The notes beneath the pieces were generated by a model. That model was given only the letters and a program-made list of their open reading frames with translations. It had not been told where the DNA came from and made no database searches. This document shows positions 21,877-42,501 of a stretch of 64,000 nt of DNA, piece by piece (position 1 is the first letter of the stretch; each line of letters opens with the position of its first letter). The stretch is from Hydnum rufescens UP504 (taxonomy: Eukaryota > Basidiomycota > Agaricomycetes > Cantharellales > Hydnaceae): NCBI GenBank assembly GCA_014904985.1, contig MU129041.1:1-64000 (forward strand), written 5' to 3'. The position numbers and the translations under genes were made by a program.

Positions 21877-24134
21877 ACCACACACCCGCTGATGTGGGTG
21901 TGTCATAAGGTAATTTTTGTCTCAGTAAATACAATAGCGCAAAAGAGTAGCCCAAGCTACTCTTTTTGCGCTACTGTGAATCTTTATACTAACGTAGCCT
22001 TTATTACTCCAGATCAAAACCAACGACAGGCTGCCCAATGAGTGGCCCAGGAACCACACCCGCTGCGGCGGGTGTGGTATATTTAAGGTGAGTCTCCTCC
22101 CCCCTAATAGATGCTGCTGCGCAAAAGAGCAGCGAAAGCTGCTCTTTTTGCGTCGCTTTTAATTTCTTAACTAATAATTCTTTATTCTAGGCTCTCGCCC
22201 GAACCACACGCCAAACGAACCCTCCCCCCCCCATCAGAAATGACAACACACCCACCAATGGAGAGTCGCAAATGCGACCCGCAAAACAAAACCCAGAAAC
22301 AAGGATGCACGACAGGGCCCAGGGACCCCAGACGAACCACACACCCGCTTCGGCGGGTGTGTGGTAATTTCAAGATAAGTATAATCGCGCAAAGGGAGCA
22401 GCGTATGCTGCTCCTTCTGCGTGGCTTTATTTTTTTATTTTTTTCTGTTACTAACACATTATTCCTAGATTTTCACCTGCCTACAACCCCCGCCAACCCC
22501 CAGACCAAAACCGAACGCACGGTACAAACAAGTACCACACACCCACTTCTGTGGGTGTGTGGTACAACAAGGTAAATTTTTGTTAAATTTCTATACGCAC
22601 AGCAATGCAAAAGGAGCAGCGCAAGCTGCTCCTTTTGCGTTGCTTCAAATTTTTTTACTAACATCACTATCATTGTAGGATTCAAATCAAACCTCCTGAA
22701 ACGACAACCCACCCCAATGGACACCCTTCCGTATGCAAAACCGAGTACAAAGCACGCGACTGGGGTGCAAAATCGGTACCACACACCCACTTCGGCGGGT
22801 GTGTGGTGATATTAGGTATGTCTCATCCCACTGGTGCCAAAAGAGCAGCAGAAGCTGCTCTTTTGGCACCTTTATTTTCTTTTTTTACTAATGGATTATT
22901 ATTTGTTGTTCTAGGCTCCTTTCCTTTGTGAAAACCCGCCCGACGAGCACACGGGCGAGCCCCCAGTATGCGCAGCCACCCAAGCCCAAAGGGCCCACCC
23001 CCCGAAACGAGGATCGACGAACCTGTGTACCACACACCCACTTCGGCGGGTGTGTGGTATTATTAGGTACATCTAATTGCATCGGTGCCAAAAGAGCAGC
23101 AGAAGCTGCTCTTTTGGCACCTCTGTTTTCTTTTTTTACTAATGTACTATTATTTATTGTTCTAGGTTCCTCCCCCCCGTGAAAACCCACCTGACGAGCA
23201 CACGGGCGAGCCCCCAGTATGCGCAGCCACCCAAGCAGAGAGGGCCTGCCCCCCGAACACGGCGATCGACGAAACTGCGTACCACACACCCGCTGCAGCG
23301 GGTGTGTGGTAATACCCTGTAAGTTTTCAATTACAAGACCTACGAAAGCACCAAAAGAGCAGCAGAAGCTGCTCTTTTGGTGCTTCCTTTGTTTTTTTTA
23401 GAAAAATTAACGTGTTATTTACTGATTGATCTAGGCCCTCTCCCAGCGCGAAAACCCCCGCACAACGCAACCCGATCCAAGAACCCGCAATCACAGTGCA
23501 AAAAACGAGTACCACACACCCGCTTCGGCGGGTGTGTGGTAATTTTAAGGTGAGTACAACCGCGCAAGAGGAGCAGCGTAGGCTGCTCCTTTTGCGTGGC
23601 TTTTCTTGTTTTTTTTTCTACTTAATGTATTATTTATTATTTTAGTTTGTCATCTGGACCCAACACCCGTGACCCCACCGAACGAACATGGGAGAACAAT
23701 GACCCACCCGCCAAACGAATCCCACGAACGGCAACGAGTCGAAACCACGATGCAAGCCCCAGATGAACCCCACACCCGCCGAAGCGGGTGTGGTGATCTT
23801 TAAGGTAAGTATATATGTACATGTCTGACTATGCAAAAGGAGCAGCAGGGGCTGCTCCTTTTGCCTGATTTTTCTTTTTTTAACTAACTTATTATTTATT
23901 ATCATAGGTATTCTCCTGAACCTGCATCCCCCAACCGAAGCCACGACCCCGCCGAGTGAAAACACGCAACCATGGGTGAGGGGGAACCCCAATGGTGAAG
24001 CGCGAAATGACGTCCCTGGTACCACACACCCACCCAAGTGGGTGTGTGGTGCTACTAGATAGTGGTTATTTTTATTTTTTTGTTCTTTGATTTCTATGGA
24101 CAGTACCACACACCCGCTAGAGCAGGTGTGTGGT
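21877..24134 (+). other. Right array: nine hairpin-intron units (plus strand)
   Basis: Intron-like segments: 21910-22012, 22088-22190, 22375-22468 (donor mutated to AT), 22572-22678, 22816-22914, 23067-23165, 23319-23434, 23550-23645, 23815-23907 (93-116 nt). Donors are mainly GTGAGT, GTAAGT or GTATGT; CTAAC/CTAAT branch-like motifs precede TAG/CAG acceptors. Internal hairpins: 21937-21971, 22119-22152, 22386-22422, 22602-22643, 22833-22870, 23084-23121, 23347-23384, 23562-23598, 23833-23864. Pre-donor hairpins: 21877-21905, 22053-22078, 22336-22365, 22534-22563, 22778-22807, 23029-23058, 23281-23310, 23511-23540, 23767-23793, and two orphan copies without an intron at 24021-24050 and 24105-24134. 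The exons around 22915-23066 and 23166-23318 are recent duplicates. Exon lengths (75, 184, 103, 137, 152, 153, 115, 169) keep no reading frame. Confidence 0.8.
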
Positions 24135-32149: not shown

Positions 32150-32435
32150 ATTGTCTTCACCTTGCTGTCATGTCATTATTCCTGGCTCATCCTTGTCACT
32201 CCCACCTCATCCTCATTGCTTGCATCTTGTCCCTGTCATTTCTGTCTCACTCTCATCGTTTCCATTGTGTCCTCATCATTTCTGTCACACCCTCATTGTT
32301 CCCACCTTGTCCTCATCATTTCTGTCACACCCTCATCATTTCCATCACATCCTCATTGTTTCCATTACATCCTCATCATTTCTGCCTCATCCTCATCATT
32401 TCTGTCTTGTCCTTGTCATTTCCATCTCATCCTCA
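32150..32435 (+). repeat. Degenerate 19-21 bp repeats (CCTCATCATTTCTGTCACA type)
   Basis: About 14 imperfect repeats of a pyrimidine-rich unit with CTCATCATT cores. They grade directly into the 17-bp satellite and are probably its ancestor. Confidence 0.75.
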
Positions 32436-33107
32436 TCATCACCATCTCTCCATCATCACCATCTCTCCATCATCACCATCTCTCCATCATCACCATCTCT
32501 CCATCATCACCATCTCTCCATCATCACCATCTCTCCATCATCACCATCTCTCCATCATCACCATCTCTCCATCATCACCATCTCTCCATCATCACCATCT
32601 CTCCATCATCACCATCTCTCCATCATCACCATCTCTCCATCATCACCATCTCTCCATCATCACCATCTCTCCATCATCACCATCTCTCCATCATCACCAT
32701 CTCTCCATCATCACCATCTCTCCATCATCACCATCTCTCCATCATCACCATCTCTCCATCATCACCATCTCTCCATCATCACCATCTCTCCATCATCACC
32801 ATCTCTCCATCATCACCATCTCTCCATCATCACCATCTCTCCATCATCACCATCTCTCCATCATCACCATCTCTCCATCATCACCATCTCTCCATCATCA
32901 CCATCTCTCCATCATCACCATCTCTCCATCATCACCATCTCTCCATCATCACCATCTCTCCATCATCACCATCTCTCCATCATCACCATCTCTCCATCAT
33001 CACCATCTCTCCATCATCACCATCTCTCCATCATCACCATCTCTCCATCATCACCATCTCTCCATCATCACCATCTCTCCATCATCACCATCTCTCCATC
33101 ATCACCA
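32436..33107 (+). repeat. 17-bp satellite CCATCATCACCATCTCT, about 39 copies
   Basis: Essentially perfect tandem copies. Because 17 is not a multiple of three and the unit lacks plus-strand stops, all three plus frames stay open for over 300 codons, producing Ser/His/Ile-rich ORFs that should not be taken as genes. Confidence 0.97.
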
Positions 33108-33529
33108 TCATTCCCCCTTTTCATGAATAGCAGTTGCTCTGAAGTTCGATGACATTGACTGATACCATGAAAAATGATGGACTTGGAAAGAAAAAAGGAT
33201 AACAGAGATGAAGAAAGCCAAGACTGGCATTCTGTGTGGACTTGTAGTGGAGATGAAGATGGAAACCAGAATGAATGGTGCCAGGGTCTTGATGCTTGAC
33301 AGCAGAGATTGAAGAGCTAAGGGAGGTTTGCATGGGGCCATGGGTCTAAAAAATCCTCTGGCATGGGCCCATGGGGCCCATGGAGCCTAATATTCAGGAA
33401 CTGCTGGGGGGCCATGGTGGGTTCAGAAGACATGTGGGGCCATGGGCCCATGAGTCTTTTAGACTCAATATCATACCAAAAAAATAGTCTAATTAGATAT
33501 GGAAACCAGGGTGCCTAAGGTGAGGTGGT
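33108..33529. other. Spacer with GGGCCCATGGGG strings
   Basis: No gene. 33330-33460 contains repeated CATGGGCCCATGG / GGGGCCATGGGCCCATG palindromic strings of uncertain origin. Confidence 0.4.
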
Positions 33530-34480: not shown

Positions 34481-34849
34481 CTCGAATCCAAATGATAACC
34501 ACTAGTTTAACAAGCCAAGATAAGCAATCTCCTGTACACTTAGAATCAATCTTAGCAACACTGACAACAAAGAAACACCAGATATTGAATTTTGGGCTTG
34601 GATGGGATAGACAGGTGATGCTAGAATGAATGCTTAAATTTCCTGAAGGTGGGAAATTAATGAAAACCTAAACTGACCAACACTTTGAGGATGGGCAGAC
34701 TGGCCTTGATCCCCTGCAGGTTTGACCACCTAATAGAACCTAGGTGAGATAGGGGCAATATTTGAAGTGCAAGATGACAACATTTACCAGACAGAAATAG
34801 CCCAAGCAATGAATGAGATTGCAATTTCACAGAATCATTTGGCCTTGGC
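34481..34849 (-). other. Region downstream of the micro-exon array
   Basis: After the last array unit the minus strand shows a longer segment (around 34673-34730) following a CTCACCTAG acceptor. It may be a terminal exon of a transcript that crosses the array. No recognisable product. Confidence 0.25.
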
Positions 34850-37800
34850 ACATTAGATGCACTTACATCATCCTGTGGAAAATACAATTGTAAAGAGGGC
34901 AGTTGGGAAATAGAATATGATTCCATTGTATAGATCTAGGAACTCACAAGCTACATTCCAAATGGCAGCAAAATGTGTATCAGCCAGGGACCATACAATG
35001 AGGAGTAAGAGATGTGGACTTACATCCTATCAGGTAATAGATGCCACCAAGGAAGAGATCAGGGAGAGAGCAATAATAATAGGCTGAGAGGTGTACACTA
35101 ACCATCTATGGGGACAAAACCACCAAGAGGGACATCAGTAAGCAATAATGTATTAAAGTCTAAGACATCAGGACTCACAGACTGAATTGTCAATGCCACC
35201 ACAAGAGTAATGAGCAAGGCATGATGCATTGAATTCCAAGACATCTGGACTTACTCCTACATTGTCAATGCCATCAAAAGATGGGTCAGTGAGGATGGTG
35301 GATCAAAATTCTATGAGATTTGGACTCACAACCTATATTGTAAATGCCACCAAAAAATGAATTGGCAAGGGAAAATGCATTGAATTCTGAGACATCCAGA
35401 CTCACACCCTATGTTGTGAATTCCACCAAAAGATGAATCAGCAAGGAACAATGCATTGAATTCCAAGACATCCAGACTTACAGCCTACATTGTGAACACC
35501 ACCAAAAGATGAATCAGCAAGGCACAATGCCTTGAATTCTAAGACATTCAGACTTACACCCTGTGTTGTGAATGCCACCAAAAGATGACTCAGCAAGGTA
35601 CAATGCACTGAATTCAAAGACATCCAGACTTACAAGCTATGGTTGTGAATGCCACCAAAAGATGAATCAGCAAGGCACAATCCATTGAATTTTAAGACAT
35701 CCAGACTTGCAGCCTATGTTGTGAATGCCACCAAAAGATGAATCAGCAAGGGACAATTCATTGAATTCTAAGACATCCAGACTTACATGCTATGTTGTGA
35801 ATACCATCAAAAGATGAATCAGCAAGGGACAATGCATTGAATTGTAAGACATCCAGACTTACAGGCTGTGTTGTGAATTCCACCAAAAGATGAATCAGCA
35901 AGGAACAATGCATTGAATTATATGACATACACACTCACAAGCTATGTTGTGAATCCCACCAAAAGATGAATCAGCAAGGCACAATGTATGAATTCTAAGA
36001 CATCCAGACTTACATACTATATTGTGAATCCCACCAAAAGATGAATCAGACAGGGGCAATGCATTGAATTCTGAGACATCCAGACTTACACCCTATGTTG
36101 TGAGTGCACAAAAGGTGAATCAGCAAGGGACAATGCATTGAATTCTAAGACATCCAGACTTACACCCTATGTTGTGAATCCCACCAAAACATGAATCAGC
36201 AAGGGACAATGCATTGAATTCTAAGACATCCAGACTTACAAGCTATGTTGTGAATCCCACCAAAACATGAATCAGCAAGGCACAATGCATTATAAATTCT
36301 AAGACATCTTCAGATTACACCCTAATTGAATCCCANNNNNNNNNNNNNNNNNNNNNNNNNNNNNNNNNNNNNNNNNNNNNNNNNNNNNNNNNNNNNNNNN
36401 NNNNNNNNNNNNNNNNNNNNNNNNNNNNNNNNNNNNNNNNNNNNNNNNNNNNNNNNNNNNNNNNNNNNNNNNNNNNNNNNNNNNNNNNNNNNNNNNNNNN
36501 NNNNNNNNNNNNNNNNNNNNNNNNNNNNNNNNNNNNNNNNNNNNNNNNNNNNNNNNNNNNNNNNNNNNNNNNNNNNNNNNNNNNNNNNNNNNNNNNNNNN
36601 NNNNNNNNNNNNNNNNNNNNNNNNNNNNNNNNNNNNNNNNNNNNNNNNNNNNNNNNNNNNNNNNNNNNNNNNNNNNNNNNNNNNNNNNNNNNNNNNNNNN
36701 NNNNNNNNNNNNNNNNNNNNNNNNNNNNNNNNNNNNNNNNNNNNNNNNNNNNNNNNNNNNNNNNNNNNNNNNNNNNNNNNNNNNNNNNNNNNNNNNNNNN
36801 NNNNNNNNNNNNNNNNNNNNNNNNNNNNNNNNNNNNNNNNNNNNNNNNNNNNNNNNNNNNNNNNNNNNNNNNNNNNNNNNNNNNNNNNNNNNNNNNNNNN
36901 NNNNNNNNNNNNNNNNNNNNNNNNNNNNNNNNNNNNNNNNNNNNNNNNNNNNNNNNNNNNNNNNNNNNNNNNNNNNNNNNNNNNNNNNNNNNNNNNNNNN
37001 NNNNNNNNNNNNNNNNNNNNNNNNNNNNNNNNNNNNNNNNNNNNNNNNNNNNNNNNNNNNNNNNNNNNNNNNNNNNNNNNNNNNNNNNNNNNNNNNNNNN
37101 NNNNNNNNNNNNNNNNNNNNNNNNNNNNNNNNNNNNNNNNNNNNNNNNNNNNNNNNNNNNNTGAATCCCACAAAACATGAATCAGCAAGGCACAATGCAT
37201 TAAAATTCAAGACATCCAGACTTACATACTATATTTGTGGGTACCACCAAAAGATGAATCAGCAAGGCACAATGTATTGAATTCTAAGACATCCAGACTT
37301 ACACCCTATGTTGTGAATCCCACCAAAAGATGAATCAGCAAGACACAATACATTGAACTCTAAGACATCCAGGCTTACAGCCTATGTTGTGAATGCCACC
37401 AAAAGATAAATCAACAAGGCACAATGCATTGAATTCTAAGACATCCAGACTTACCTCCTATGTTGTGAATGCCACCAAAAGATGAATCAGCAAGGGACAA
37501 TGCATTGAATTCTAAGACATCCAGACTTACAAGCTATGTTGTGAATCCCACCAAAAGATGAATCAGCAAGGCACAATGCATTGAATTCTAAGACATCCAG
37601 ACTTACAGGCTATGTTATGAATCCCACCAAAAAGATAAATCAGCAAGGGACAATGCATTGAATTCTAAGACATCCAGACTTACACCCTATGTTGTGAATC
37701 CCACCAAAAGATAAACCAACAAGGCACAATGCATTGAATTGTAAGACATCCAGACTTACAACCTATGTTGTGAATACCATCAAAAGATGAATCAGCAAAG

Positions 37801-40800
37801 GACAATGCATTGAATTCTGAGACATTCAGACTTACACCCTATGTTGTGAATCCCACCAAAAGATGAATCAGCAAGGGACAATGCATTGAATTCTAAGACA
37901 TCCAGACTTACATACTATATTGTGAATCCCACCAAAAGATGAATCAGCACAGGACAATGTATTGAATTCTAGGACATCCAGACTCACATACTATGTTGTG
38001 CATCCCACCAAAAGATGAATCAGCAAGGAACAATGCATTGAATTCTAAGACATCCAGACTTACATACTATGTTGTGAATCCCACCAAAAGATGAATCAAC
38101 AAGGGCCAATGCATTGAATTCTAAGACACCCAGACTTACATACTATGTTGTGAATGCCACCCAAGGATGAATCAGCAAGGGACAATGCATTGAATTCTAA
38201 GACATCCAGACTTACAAGCTATGTTATGAATGCCACCAAAAGATGAATCAGCAAAGGACAATGCATTGAATTTTAGACTTACAACCTATGTTGTGAATGC
38301 CACCAAAAGATGAATCATCAAGGGACACTGCATTGGATTCTAAGGCACCCAGACTTACATCCTTTGTTGTAAATGCCACCAAAAGATGAATCAGCAAGGG
38401 ACAATGCATTGAATTCTAACACATCTGCACTTACTTCCTACATTGTTAATGCCAACCCAAAGATGTATCAAGTGTTAACCATTCTTCTGAGGGTGTGTGA
38501 TATGGACTTACATCCTACAGCATTCAGGCAACCAAGCAATCCATCAGCCAGACCCCTTGCATCACATTCTAAAAGATCCCAGCTCACCCTCTGTGTTGTC
38601 AATACCACCCACAAGAGAAATCAGCCAGCAGTGGTATATGGAATTGAATCCTCCAGACCTACCCCCTTTGTTGCCAATGCAAAAGACAAATCAGGCAGAA
38701 ACCATGCCTCAATCAATATGATATCTGGACTTACATACTAAAATGTCACCCAAGATACTTCAACCAAGTACCACCTCATGAATGGTCAGAGACATGAACT
38801 CACTGCCTTACATTGTCCATGCCACCAAGAATGTGTCAGCCACTGAGCATGCATTACATTGCCAGAGACCTCAACATACATTCTACATTTTCAATACCAG
38901 ACAATGAATGTATTAGTAAACACCCATATATTAAATGGTAGGCAATGCAACTCACTTCCTAAATTGCCAATACCACCAAATGATGAATCAGCCTGCAATC
39001 CTACATCAAATTGTGAGAGATCATGAGCCCACCAGCTACAATGTTGATACCATTGATGGGATCAGCCAGCACCACATACTAAATTCAAAGGGAGCCAGGC
39101 TTACCTCCTGGTTGTCAGTCATCCAGAGAGGTATGAGCCAGTGATTGTGCATCAAGGAGGTATCAATTAGAACTTACATCCTCCATTATTAATATCACCA
39201 ACAAATATATTGGCAATGACCCCACATCAAATTAAAGGAGATCCAAACTTACATGCTACATTGTCAATGGGACCAAACAATGTATCACAGAGTGACCATG
39301 CATTAAATTGTAGGAGATTCAGGCTTACTTCCTACATTGTCCATGTGAGACAGAGAAATATCACTCCACACTTGTGTATTACATTGGAAGAGAACCAGAC
39401 TTACAGCCTACATTGTCAATGCCACCAAATCTATCTCAGCCAACCAGCATTGATTCATTACTAAGGAATTCAGACTTACATTCTATGTTGTTAGTCCCAC
39501 CAATGAATGTATTAATCATACATCCACCCAGGAAGGCAGGTGACATCCACTTACTTGCTATTTCATCAACCCCATCCAATGATATATCAGACAGCACCCA
39601 CACATCAAACTGGGAGGTATGCAGGCTTACATCCTACATTGTTGATGACATTGAAAACAATGTATCAACTAGCACATAATGATAGTGGGGATAGACTCAC
39701 ATCCTACATTGTGAATACCATCCATTGATGTATCAGCCTGTGACCCTGCTAGGAGAAGCTGCCCACCAGCTATGTGATGGTGGATGCCACCAAAAATGGA
39801 TCAACAAGCACTCAGACAAACTCAAAAGGGAGCCCACATTCTTGATTGCCAATGTTATCCAGTGATGGTGCATCAAGATGGAGAGCCACACTCACATCCT
39901 ATGTTATCAATGTCACCAAACAATCCACTACCTGTCAGTGACCACACATCAAATTGGAAGATATCTAAACATACAGACTGCAGTGTCAATGGAACCAAAT
40001 AATGTATGAGCTATCAATGAAGGACCACACATCAAATTGTGAGAGAACTGGGCTTACTGTCTACAGTGTCCATGACAGGAAGAAATATCAGCCCCATACA
40101 CACATCAAATTGCAAGATATACTGACTTGCTACAGTGTCCATCATCCATCATCCAATGACAGATCAGCTAGTCACCATCTGCCAACTCATAGGAATTCCC
40201 AACTTACATACTATATTGTCCATGTCATCAAATGGTGCATCAGCCAGTGATCACCAATGAATACTTGGAAATATGAACCTACCTCCTATTTTATTGATCC
40301 CACAAATGATGTATCAGCCAAGGACCTCATACTGGATCCACACTCACATACTATATTGTGAATGTCATCAAAATATTTGTCAGTCAACAACCATGCATTG
40401 AATTAGAAAGACATCTGGACATACATCCTATGGTGTTAATGCCACCAAAAGATAGACAGTCACTAACCACACATCAAATAGCATGTGAAGCCAACCCACA
40501 TTCTATGTGTTCATCCCACCAAAAGTTGTATCAACTAGTGACCACATATCAAGATGTGAGAGGTGCAGTCTTACCTCCTACATTGTTGATATCACCAAGG
40601 GATATATCAGCTGGCAATCATGCAGATCCAAAGGTGAGAAATGCATACTCACACACTATGTTTCCAGGCCACCCAAAGATGTAAACCCAGCAATCCCGCA
40701 TCAAATTCTAAGAGATGCAAACTCACCCCCTGCATTTCAGATTCCACCAGAAGTTGTATCAGATAGCCATGCATGAAATGGTGGGAGTTCTAGACTCACA

Positions 40801-41110
40801 TACTGTTCCCAATGACATCAAAAAATGTATCAACCAGCTACCATGTATCACATTATTGGAGATCTGGACTGACCAACTGCATTGTCAATGCCACAAAGAT
40901 AATGTAAGCCAGTGATCATGGAACAAATTTTAGTGCCTGCTGCCATACCTCCTATGTTGTCAATGCCATCCAATGAACCAATCATGCCAATAATGTCACA
41001 ACCAGTTACCACAGTTACAGCATATGATACAATCAGTACATTCCTCACAAGTGACAGAGTCACTCACCATGAGAATTCTGAACCTCCTATCTGCGCGTAA
41101 CTGGGTTTCT
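34850..41110 (-). repeat. Tandem array of intron-like units separated by 3-base micro-exons
   Basis: The core (about 35.15-38.48 kb) is a 76-bp tandem repeat; outer parts (34.85-35.15 and 38.48-41.1 kb) are more divergent units of about 65-95 bp. Read on the minus strand each unit is GT(A/G)AGTCTGGATGT...CTGAT...YAG, and the YAG is separated from the next GTRRGT by exactly three bases in almost every unit. One unit near 35250 has two bases and one near 34860 has six. I scored about 70 visible units. Triplets seen include GGT, GCT, CTT, CCT, CAT, TAT, GTT, GAT, GAG, GAA, AAT, CAA and CTG, and never a stop codon. An assembly gap interrupts the core. It starts about 30 bases beyond the stop of a GTPase gene (41139-42501) whose last intron begins with the same GTGAGTCTGGATGT. 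Confidence 0.8.
36336..37161. other. Assembly gap (826 N)
   Basis: Run of N within the 76-bp repeat core. At 76 bp per unit it would hold about 11 units if the gap size is real. Confidence 1.
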
Positions 41111-41138
41111 TCATCTTCCCCAGATCCTGGGGTCCTAG

Positions 41139-42501
41139 TCATGATGTTCCCTGAACATAGTCAAATTGTACCATTATCTCATTATTACAACTTGAGACAG
41201 GACCTTCAGCTCCACCAGCAAGGACACTACAAAATAAACATGGCTGTTAATCACTATCAATCTGTTGAACATCCAGACTCACCGTTTTAAAACATATATG
41301 GTATGAACCCGGCGATTTCTTTTCCAAACCGTGAGCTTGAGCAATGATCTCTGGGTACCAGGTGGAAGTGCATCTATAGTGGTTTGAAGAAGTTGGGCAC
41401 ACAATGCTACACTCTGCTTGGTAGCTTCATGCATGTCTTCAAGCCATAGATTTAATTGCCAAAATCACTCCTCAGATAGAATATACATACTTCCAACCCT
41501 GGCGAAACCAGCAGGTGGGTACCGCTCCTTCTGAAATTCTGTCTCGAGTCCGTGAACAAATTCAGCCACTTTTTGCTTCACTTCCGCGGCACAAGCAAGG
41601 AAATCGGATGGGCTGGCAGTAGGGTCGAGAACCGCACCCCTCACTTTCGTCTCTCTTCCATCCAATTTCGTGAAGATCCCAATAACAGGCACTAAACGGA
41701 GACATGGGCCAGTGCGTAAAATAGGATCGAATGGTGCAGCTCAGGAACATACCTGATGCTGTGGATTTGGAGAAAAATCCTGACTGCAGGAATCCAAAGG
41801 GCCTGTCATTATCTGTTGGAATGCAGAGCCTGTAGCAATCGATGAGTCAATGTATGAGGATGTCATGGGGGAACGCACCAAATTGCGTGCAAATGCTGTG
41901 AAGGCGAAGCCAACGAATGCTTTTGAATAAATTTCCAGACGGCCTGGAGCTCCTCGACCCCTCCAGCCTCGAAACCACCAGAGTCGTGAAAAACGAAGTC
42001 AGAGTTTGATGCATAAGTGATTTCGTCCTCGATATTGTGGATCCCTCGCTAGATGGTATGAAAACATCGAGCAAGCGGCGTGCACGATTGCTAGGATGAC
42101 TCTTACTTGATCGTATCCCCTGGGGCTTCCTTGATCTGAGAGAGAAAGGGATGCATTAAACCAGCAGCTCTATTGAGTTGAACATCTGTAGTAATTACAC
42201 GTTTTCCGTTCCGGGTCACTATAGCCGCCCCGGCGGGGCTGTCTGTTAGTCTTTCGAGCAGAGTGGTCTTTCCTGCGTTCGCCGGTCCAAGTATGAGGAT
42301 CCTGAAGCGGTTGTTTCTGGCCCTATCTTTGTTAGAGAGTTCTTCATCGGGGACTTCTTCGTCGGGGACTCCTTTGCCGGGGACTTCTTTGTGGGGGACG
42401 TCTTCATCGGGGACGTCTTCATCGGGGACGTCTTCATCGGGGACCTCCTTCAGGGTGAATTTCTTGGAGAGTTTAAAATGCTTGCGGATAGACTTCAACA
42501 T
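41139..42501 (-). CDS. P-loop GTPase gene (GT0), five to six exons
   Basis: Exon 1 (42501-42107) starts MLKSIRKHFKLSKK, then a VPDED-type tandem repeat, then RILILGPANAGKTTLLERL (G1, GxxxxGKT). Exon 2 (42048-41879) has GIHNIEDEI and FVFHDSGGFEAGG (G3). Exon 3 (41829-41753) has CIPTDNDRPFGFLQSG. Exon 4 (from 41691) has VPVIGIFTKLDG (G4, TKLD) and runs to the GTGAGT donor at 41277-41282. The last exon ends at the TGA at 41139-41141 after QFDYVQGTS. It is probably a membrane- or cytosol-associated G-domain protein of unknown role, common as multigene families in mushrooms. Oddities: the exon 1-2 junction keeps frame only if one G has been lost at the donor, and a TGA lies in frame after YILSEE. 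So it is either damaged or carries sequencing indels. Confidence 0.65.
42340..42452 (-). repeat. 15-bp minisatellite in GT0 coding for VPDED-like repeats
   Basis: Tandem GACGTCCCCGATGAA-like units (eight or so) on the minus strand give EVPDEDVPDEDVPDED and variants (VPHKE, VPGKG, VPDEE). It lies between a basic N-terminus and the P-loop; length is a multiple of three so frame is kept. Confidence 0.8.

Follow-up and report, generated by a model that had tools for sequence, protein, structure and literature searches.

Hydnum rufescens UP504 carries a gene for a G-domain GTPase whose tail is an array of short introns separated by single codons. The copy studied here lies on the minus strand of a 64,000-nt stretch of contig MU129041.1 (positions 1 to 64,000; hereafter the window). 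We regard it as probable that in the tail of this GTPase nearly each codon, up to the 3' exons, is an exon of its own of three bases, that these exons are spliced in order as predicted, and that the hypervariable middle of the tail is likely used in nonself or partner recognition. A wider proposal, which we hold somewhat short of evenly balanced, is that the roughly fifty GTPase genes of this kind form a genome-wide codon library of intron-plus-codon bricks, in which recombination between introns, perhaps together with directed codon mutation, edits single residues in frame, and that the arrangement evolved independently in truffles and hedgehog mushrooms, both of them ectomycorrhizal lineages.

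The array and its splice signals

On the minus strand, the unit finder resolved 69 units between 41068, where the 5' exon preceding the array ends, and 34948. Each consists of an intron, mostly of 73 nt, followed by three bases and the next donor; the first triplet occupies 40951-40949 and the last 34950-34948. The initial annotation had proposed about 70 units with exactly three bases between them, and this description holds: AG-NNN-GT is present at 67 of the 69 junctions, the exceptions being a GC donor at the triplet at 35713 and a 2-nt exon at 35256-35255. An assembly gap of 826 N bases (36336-37161) within the array leaves space for about 11 further units. In the window the motif AGNNNGTRAGT has 52 occurrences where 3.2 would be expected, a count that none of 100 shuffles reached, and a looser motif chain gave 39 units on the minus strand and one on the plus strand, with a maximum of 3 in 300 shuffles.

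The 76-bp tandem units are homogeneous in the centre of the array and diverged at its edges. Thirty-five introns were classed as divergent, their cores having less than 0.70 identity to the unit consensus; their mean identity is 0.61, compared with 0.50 for shuffled cores. All 35 retain GT..AG and 86% have CTGAT, CTGAC or TTGAT, in line with the earlier suggestion that the outer units keep their splice and branch-like signals while the rest drifts. The GT..AG count in these units is partly forced by the unit finder; alignments across arrays provide a freer test and agree with it.

For that test, 17 arrays from the same genome were aligned over the constant part of the tail. Column classes were assigned by majority and the letters of every row were counted, so that a near-zero difference at GT..AG is not a product of the unit finder. 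Pairwise difference per site is 0.002-0.004 at GT..AG and 0.04-0.13 at donor positions +3 to +6. The intron interiors differ by 0.07-0.23 per site (0.069, 0.158 and 0.234 in three distance classes of 32, 12 and 92 pairs). Equal conservation of the flanking positions, which the initial annotation had named as grounds against selection on splicing, is thus not what the arrays display.

Evidence that the triplets are joined

Three JGI proteins bear on splicing directly. P0121 (109 amino acids, from a 931-base contig) runs from the end of the G domain through the linker exon into ELYGCENDYEYKASDNLDHEKAEHDALE, whose residues follow the codons of units 1-28 in array C243 one after another; after these come D and then sequence read as intron. 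P0029 (219 amino acids, 936-base contig) contains ELYGLEDLYEYKTPQAHNLENENEEQHQLETVY, a run of 33 residues alignable with the family's one-codon exons, the comparison being with family arrays rather than with its own genomic locus, and continues into VSPDPY, which looks like a retained intron. P0123 (1156-base contig) joins the three 3' exons (A, B and C, listed below) as predicted. In genomic DNA 28 units alone would require more than 2.1 kb. The three contigs are too short to hold the introns, and we infer that they derive from RNA; in P0121 and P0029 about 29 and 33 one-codon exons, all in the constant part, are joined. Together with the 17-array alignment, these proteins bear out the suggestion of selection on splicing that yields single-codon exons. 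As a separate observation, P0121 and P0029 both turn intron-like near codons 29-33, shortly ahead of the hypervariable part, which is possibly a regulated stop.

The alternative offered with that suggestion, a nest of recursive splice sites, is not needed. Recursive sites, in which a zero-length exon rebuilds AG-GT, were rejected because three bases are kept between AG and GT and the corresponding codons are found in P0121.

The same proteins bear on whether diversity arises mainly by alternative splicing of these exons. Exons that are nearly all 3 nt long and in phase 0 would allow any subset to be skipped in frame, giving many tails per gene; such splicing has been reported for the 3-bp mini-exons of the truffle nank genes, and the end of P0121 looks like two exons skipped to a cryptic site. 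However, P0121 omits none of codons 1-28 of the C243 order, and the DNA itself is already diverse from locus to locus. We consider this explanation rather unlikely as the main one.

Structure of the gene

The gene upstream of the array matches NCBI proteins of H. rufescens UP504, P0004 among them. The features of the locus are as follows.

41204..42501, minus strand: G-domain (small GTPase) part in several exons, P-loop GPANAGKTT; from NCBI protein matches (P0004), Pfam and paralog alignment
41151..41203, minus strand: small intron of 53 nt (GTCCTG..TTCAG) from the G-domain exons to the linker exon; relatives read across
41068..41150, minus strand: linker exon, reading (G)NIMTRTPGSGEDEETQLRADRRFRILM; 32 genome places listed, 0 with an internal stop
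34948..41067, minus strand: array of introns (mostly 73 nt) and one-codon exons, 69 triplet units resolved; unit finder
38435..40951, minus strand: constant N-part, units 1-35, ELYGCENDYEYQTSDNLDDQNAEHDELENAYGRDE; unit read-out and cross-array alignment
35330..38361, minus strand: hypervariable part, units 36-64, DVLYYYYGVGPLEAGY (gap) LGGYLPHALGAGV, nearly all NNT codons; unit read-out
36336..37161, no strand: assembly gap inside the array; N run
35255..35256, minus strand: two-base exon, TGTAG-GA-GTAAGT, likely a frame lesion or a skipped unit; unit read-out
34948..35181, minus strand: constant C-part codons, units 66-69, SMDL; unit read-out
34867..34872, minus strand: two-codon exon GATGAT (DD), predicted; cross-array alignment
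34678..34713, minus strand: exon A, GIKASLPILKVL, donor GTCAGT; cross-array alignment and P0123 (3' part of exon A)
34566..34620, minus strand: exon B, HHLSIPSKPKIQYLVFLC plus one base, donor GTCAGT; cross-array alignment and P0123
34323..34501, minus strand: terminal coding exon C (..VIIWIRGGRG...IIDEYTAL, stop); 53 genome places, 52 without an internal stop, and P0123

The array makes up the tail of a GTPase gene with a G domain. The P-loop GxxxxGKT is present and the relatives are named G-domain proteins, as expected of a small GTPase; Pfam gave only weak Arf and MMR_HSR1 matches for the gene, with scores near the curated cut-offs and two of three queries just below. The tail had no Pfam match at E<=1. 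NACHT is a P-loop domain; no Pfam match to it or to ankyrin was found in either the G-domain part or the tail. The joint over the 53-nt intron is read across in the NCBI models of six paralogs (P0002, P0006, P0012, P0014, P0015 and P0028) and likewise in P0121. The model P0014 ends in DYVSVDSI, which was rejected as a genuine tail: a one-codon exon has been read on into its intron. The first GTPase exon also contains a 15-bp tandem repeat (42340-42444) that codes VPDE-type repeats and varies in number among the paralogous proteins.

At the other end, the 3' pieces were first taken from open frames and their exact joints then set by P0123, which stops short of the two-codon exon. All seven 3' splice sites tested have GT or AG in all of 16 arrays. 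The two-codon exon measures 6 nt and exon A 36 nt in every one of these arrays; exon B varies from 46 to 55 nt, 3 or 9 being lost. The frame through the 3' exons is held in 15 of the 16, reaching the stop in 10 and the limit of the aligned stretch in 5; C339 is shifted. A straight frame-0 read-through of the 3' flank was rejected because P0123 shows splicing there and the divergent copies have early stops. Beyond the conserved 3' flank lies a 17-bp unit repeated 39.8 times with 100% matches (32434-33109), and elsewhere in the window, outside the array gene, there is a 251-bp direct repeat of 2.1 copies with 87% matches (22776-23314).

A family of array genes

The 63.2-Mb assembly (539 contigs) was searched with several parts of the gene. 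A 401-base piece from the core of the array had 455 matches, on 20 contigs among the matches listed. The 5' region was found at 40 places (40 of 45 candidates scored) and the 3' flank at 40 (40 of 55 scored). Internal stops were absent from the 32 places listed for the linker exon and present in one of the 53 for the terminal exon. Pairing 43 five-prime places (40 from the 5' region and 3 more from the linker exon) with the 53 terminal exons gave 40 family loci whose two ends share a strand and lie 3.6-12.7 kb from each other, and the family likely holds about forty arrays in all. One of its members is a second array gene on the window's own contig, about 27 kb further on and in the opposite orientation (C133, 67965-75066, plus strand). 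No matches were found in the viral contigs searched.

Units were read in 19 arrays with 36-92 units each, some of them shortened by gaps or by the end of the fetched stretch. Three messy and partly inverted pieces (C252a, b and c) were kept out of this set and of the later analyses; on C252, array pieces of opposite orientation are separated by about 3 kb and a small gap lies close to one of them, probably through misassembly or an inverted duplication. Except in C32b and C164, the exons of the 19 arrays are nearly all 3 nt long and in phase 0. Most apparent 4-nt exons (GGTG, GGCA or GTTG after TAA) were misread AAG-NNN-GT junctions, corrected by script in the window and by eye elsewhere. With the AAG acceptors so read, C243, C147, C55 and C6a have no exon of any other length, and C35 has a single GC donor only. 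The order of triplets is common to the arrays: a conserved N-part (ELYG.E..YEY...), a hypervariable middle, and a C-part in frame with the shared 3' exons.

Coding signal in the constant part

Of the 31 codon columns of the constant part, 10 show no variation in any row, and of 647 intron trinucleotides 49 do so (Fisher p=1.2e-4). Stops are present in none of 515 triplets, compared with 514 of 10563 intron trinucleotides (4.9%); the TAG triplet of C14 lies outside these columns. The fixed residues are E, L, E, Y, E, Y, N, L, L, Y and D. The constant part is a mixture of fixed and fast-changing residues, because these fixed positions stand beside a codon mean that is not clearly below the intron mean.

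That last comparison is one of several points that weigh against our reading. Mean difference in the constant part, codons against introns, is 0.151 v 0.130 in 11 arrays and 0.168 v 0.186 in 17. Of the single-step codon changes there, 9 are synonymous and 38 are not, close to the share expected under neutrality, and a codon-substitution scan of the 3' flank found no frame with a significant synonymous excess. Some arrays are damaged. The window copy is one base short near 42125 in its G domain: of ten other rows in the alignment nine have this base, and the tenth, C243, is unalignable at that point. With this gap, the 2-nt exon and the GC donor, the window copy may be a decaying member of the family. 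Three units of C14 are broken, one being a TAG triplet, and C32b and C164 are degenerate, as is C339 to a smaller extent. In the 19-array read-out, exons of other lengths than 3 nt number 23 in C32b, eleven in C164, three each in C339 and C303, and two in C14. Regarding splicing, P0121 and P0029 enter intron-like sequence after codons 29 and 33 and no such protein covers the hypervariable part, so that inclusion of all the codons is a prediction. An intronless retrocopy would look like P0121, P0029 or P0123, and their source states neither an RNA origin nor the species of the contigs. Finally, a nonself-recognition role of the protein, which we hold to be probable, is argued by analogy.

Independently of these points, the many 2-, 4- or 6-nt exons in the middle of the C32 and C164 arrays could result from decaying genes or from poor assembly.

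The damaged arrays and the lack of an overall synonymous excess, together with tandem 76-bp units that are homogeneous in the centre and diverged at the edges, are also what would be seen in an ordinary satellite, or an introner-like intron array in a dying gene, spliced or not and without a coding role. Such an array would not be expected to keep its splice signals while the intron interiors drift, to share a codon order with other arrays, to hold its 3' frame intact in 15 of 16 cases, to be represented by proteins from contigs too short for introns, or to be hypervariable at codon positions 1 and 2 and not at 3. We therefore regard this explanation as highly improbable.

The hypervariable middle

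The middle of the tail was examined in 274 core units from 13 array pieces. Per-column difference is 0.655 at the first codon position, 0.716 at the second and 0.092 at the third, and the 73 intron columns of the same units have a mean of 0.090 (largest 0.53). Positions 1 and 2 thus differ 7-8 times more than the introns, and position 3 equals them. Frequent codons in this part are CAT, GGT, CTT, GAT, TAT, GCT, GTT, CCT, TTT and CGT; those with a first A, plus TCT and TGT, are infrequent. The set of 469 variable codons includes some constant ones, as the cut between the two parts failed for C281 and C476, and C32b was excluded from these counts and from the nearest-unit and linkage tests below. 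Turnover in the middle can be seen in C14 and C243, which differ by 3.1% in the introns of the constant part and whose longest common run after that part is the C-terminal VESMDL.

A difference confined to two codon positions could be produced by targeted hypermutation, a mechanism that rewrites the first two bases of the middle codons far faster than the adjacent introns change. The first and second positions alone are affected, the third behaving like the introns. Triplets differ in 8 of 8 unit pairs with 146 identical flanking bases, not all of them independent (three share units of one array, and one joins two array pieces). The difference between triplets is already near its plateau at 0-2 flank differences, where the triplet is common to 16% of 92 pairs against 13% in shuffled data (p=0.2). 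On the other side, array C166 has TGG seven times and no C in the read-out, which speaks for a choice of amino acid and not of two bases, and in 4 of 12 arrays (C273, C166, C147 and C14) the nearest unit shares its triplet above chance. An argument from linkage, that introns are linked across an unlinked triplet, was dropped when the effect vanished on removal of the divergent edge units; free exchange explains it. With those units removed, linkage relative to shuffled data is 1.2-1.4 within one intron, 1.0-1.2 across the triplet and 1.1-1.4 between triplet and intron. Overall, hypermutation of this kind appears to us improbable.

Linkage this weak, inside the intron and across the triplet alike, is read as frequent exchange among units. 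Under our preferred reading, that of one-codon exons diversified in the DNA, the unit of one 73-nt intron plus one codon would be a frame-safe building block: because each unit holds one intron and one codon, the frame should be kept wherever in the intron an exchange falls, and unequal exchange and gene conversion in the near-identical introns could add, remove or swap whole codons. Introns that are homogeneous beside codons that are saturated with difference call for selection on the codons. Homogenisation would then keep the introns alike while diversifying selection would hold the middle codons different, and it is this combination that we infer for the array.

As to function, the G domain may signal and the tail may sense, as is proposed by analogy with the NLR genes of fungi. 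The analogy is suggested by the nucleotide-binding domain in front, the variable tail behind, the expanded family and the ectomycorrhizal habit of the fungus.

Relation to known systems

Micro-exon genes of schistosomes likewise have many small in-frame exons and evolve fast; they differ in that their exons are longer than one codon, their host is an animal and their products are secreted proteins. PMC4350168 is a paper on such genes. In fungi, splicing of exons far below the usual size is described for a one-nucleotide exon in Fusarium CYP621A (PMC12940212) and a microexon in Trichoderma Xlr2 (PMC11121469), which are isolated and do not form rows of tens as in Hydnum.

Given the closest parallel, one remark of the initial annotation is not supported, namely that no fungal locus of this kind had been described. 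Codon-sized or 3-bp mini-exons, alternatively spliced, are mentioned for the NACHT-ANK (nank) genes of the truffle Tuber melanosporum in four papers that cite Iotti et al. 2012 (PMC4986451, PMC3689799, PMC10197012, PMC9815663). The nank genes share with the Hydnum family rows of codon-sized exons (dozens of 3-bp ones), expansion of the family, a nucleotide-binding domain, a variable C-terminal part and the ectomycorrhizal habit of the fungus. They belong to an ascomycete rather than a basidiomycete, and encode a NACHT-ankyrin receptor rather than a small GTPase. Their diversity is described as alternative splicing, whereas in Hydnum the codons themselves are hypervariable between loci, the units of the two systems being compared by description only. 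The kind of gene is therefore already known from truffle nank; the Hydnum family differs in phylum, in its N-terminal domain and in the kind of evidence for codon diversification. Hydnum is apparently an independent case, in another phylum and another gene family.

A second parallel lies in the WD, ANK and TPR repeats of fungal NLR proteins, in which selection favouring difference has been described. Like the Hydnum units, such repeats (the WD repeats of Podospora, for example) are near-identical, evolve in concert and have a few positions under diversifying selection (PMC4986451). The backbone of the repeat is protein in those genes, while in Hydnum it is intron and one codon per unit reaches the protein.

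Our literature search returned no paper recognised, by title and the start of its abstract, as dealing with genes of this kind in Hydnum or any other basidiomycete; subscription journals lay mostly outside the search. Exon terms were looked for in PMC7550596 and none was found.

Biological meaning

The size and number of these exons are extreme: runs of about 29-33 consecutive codons, each an exon of its own, are found joined in order. The family offers a natural test of the spliceosome on exons that have no room for exon definition. It also makes testable the question of whether introns can act as a frame-safe scaffold for fast protein diversification, the introns themselves being a built-in neutral control. 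The array tails are missing from the annotation examined, because the NCBI models of the family in that annotation end before or within the array. The truffle parallel, apparently independent, suggests a recurrent solution in ectomycorrhizal fungi. The fungus likely uses the wide variation of the middle codons to diversify a protein of recognition.

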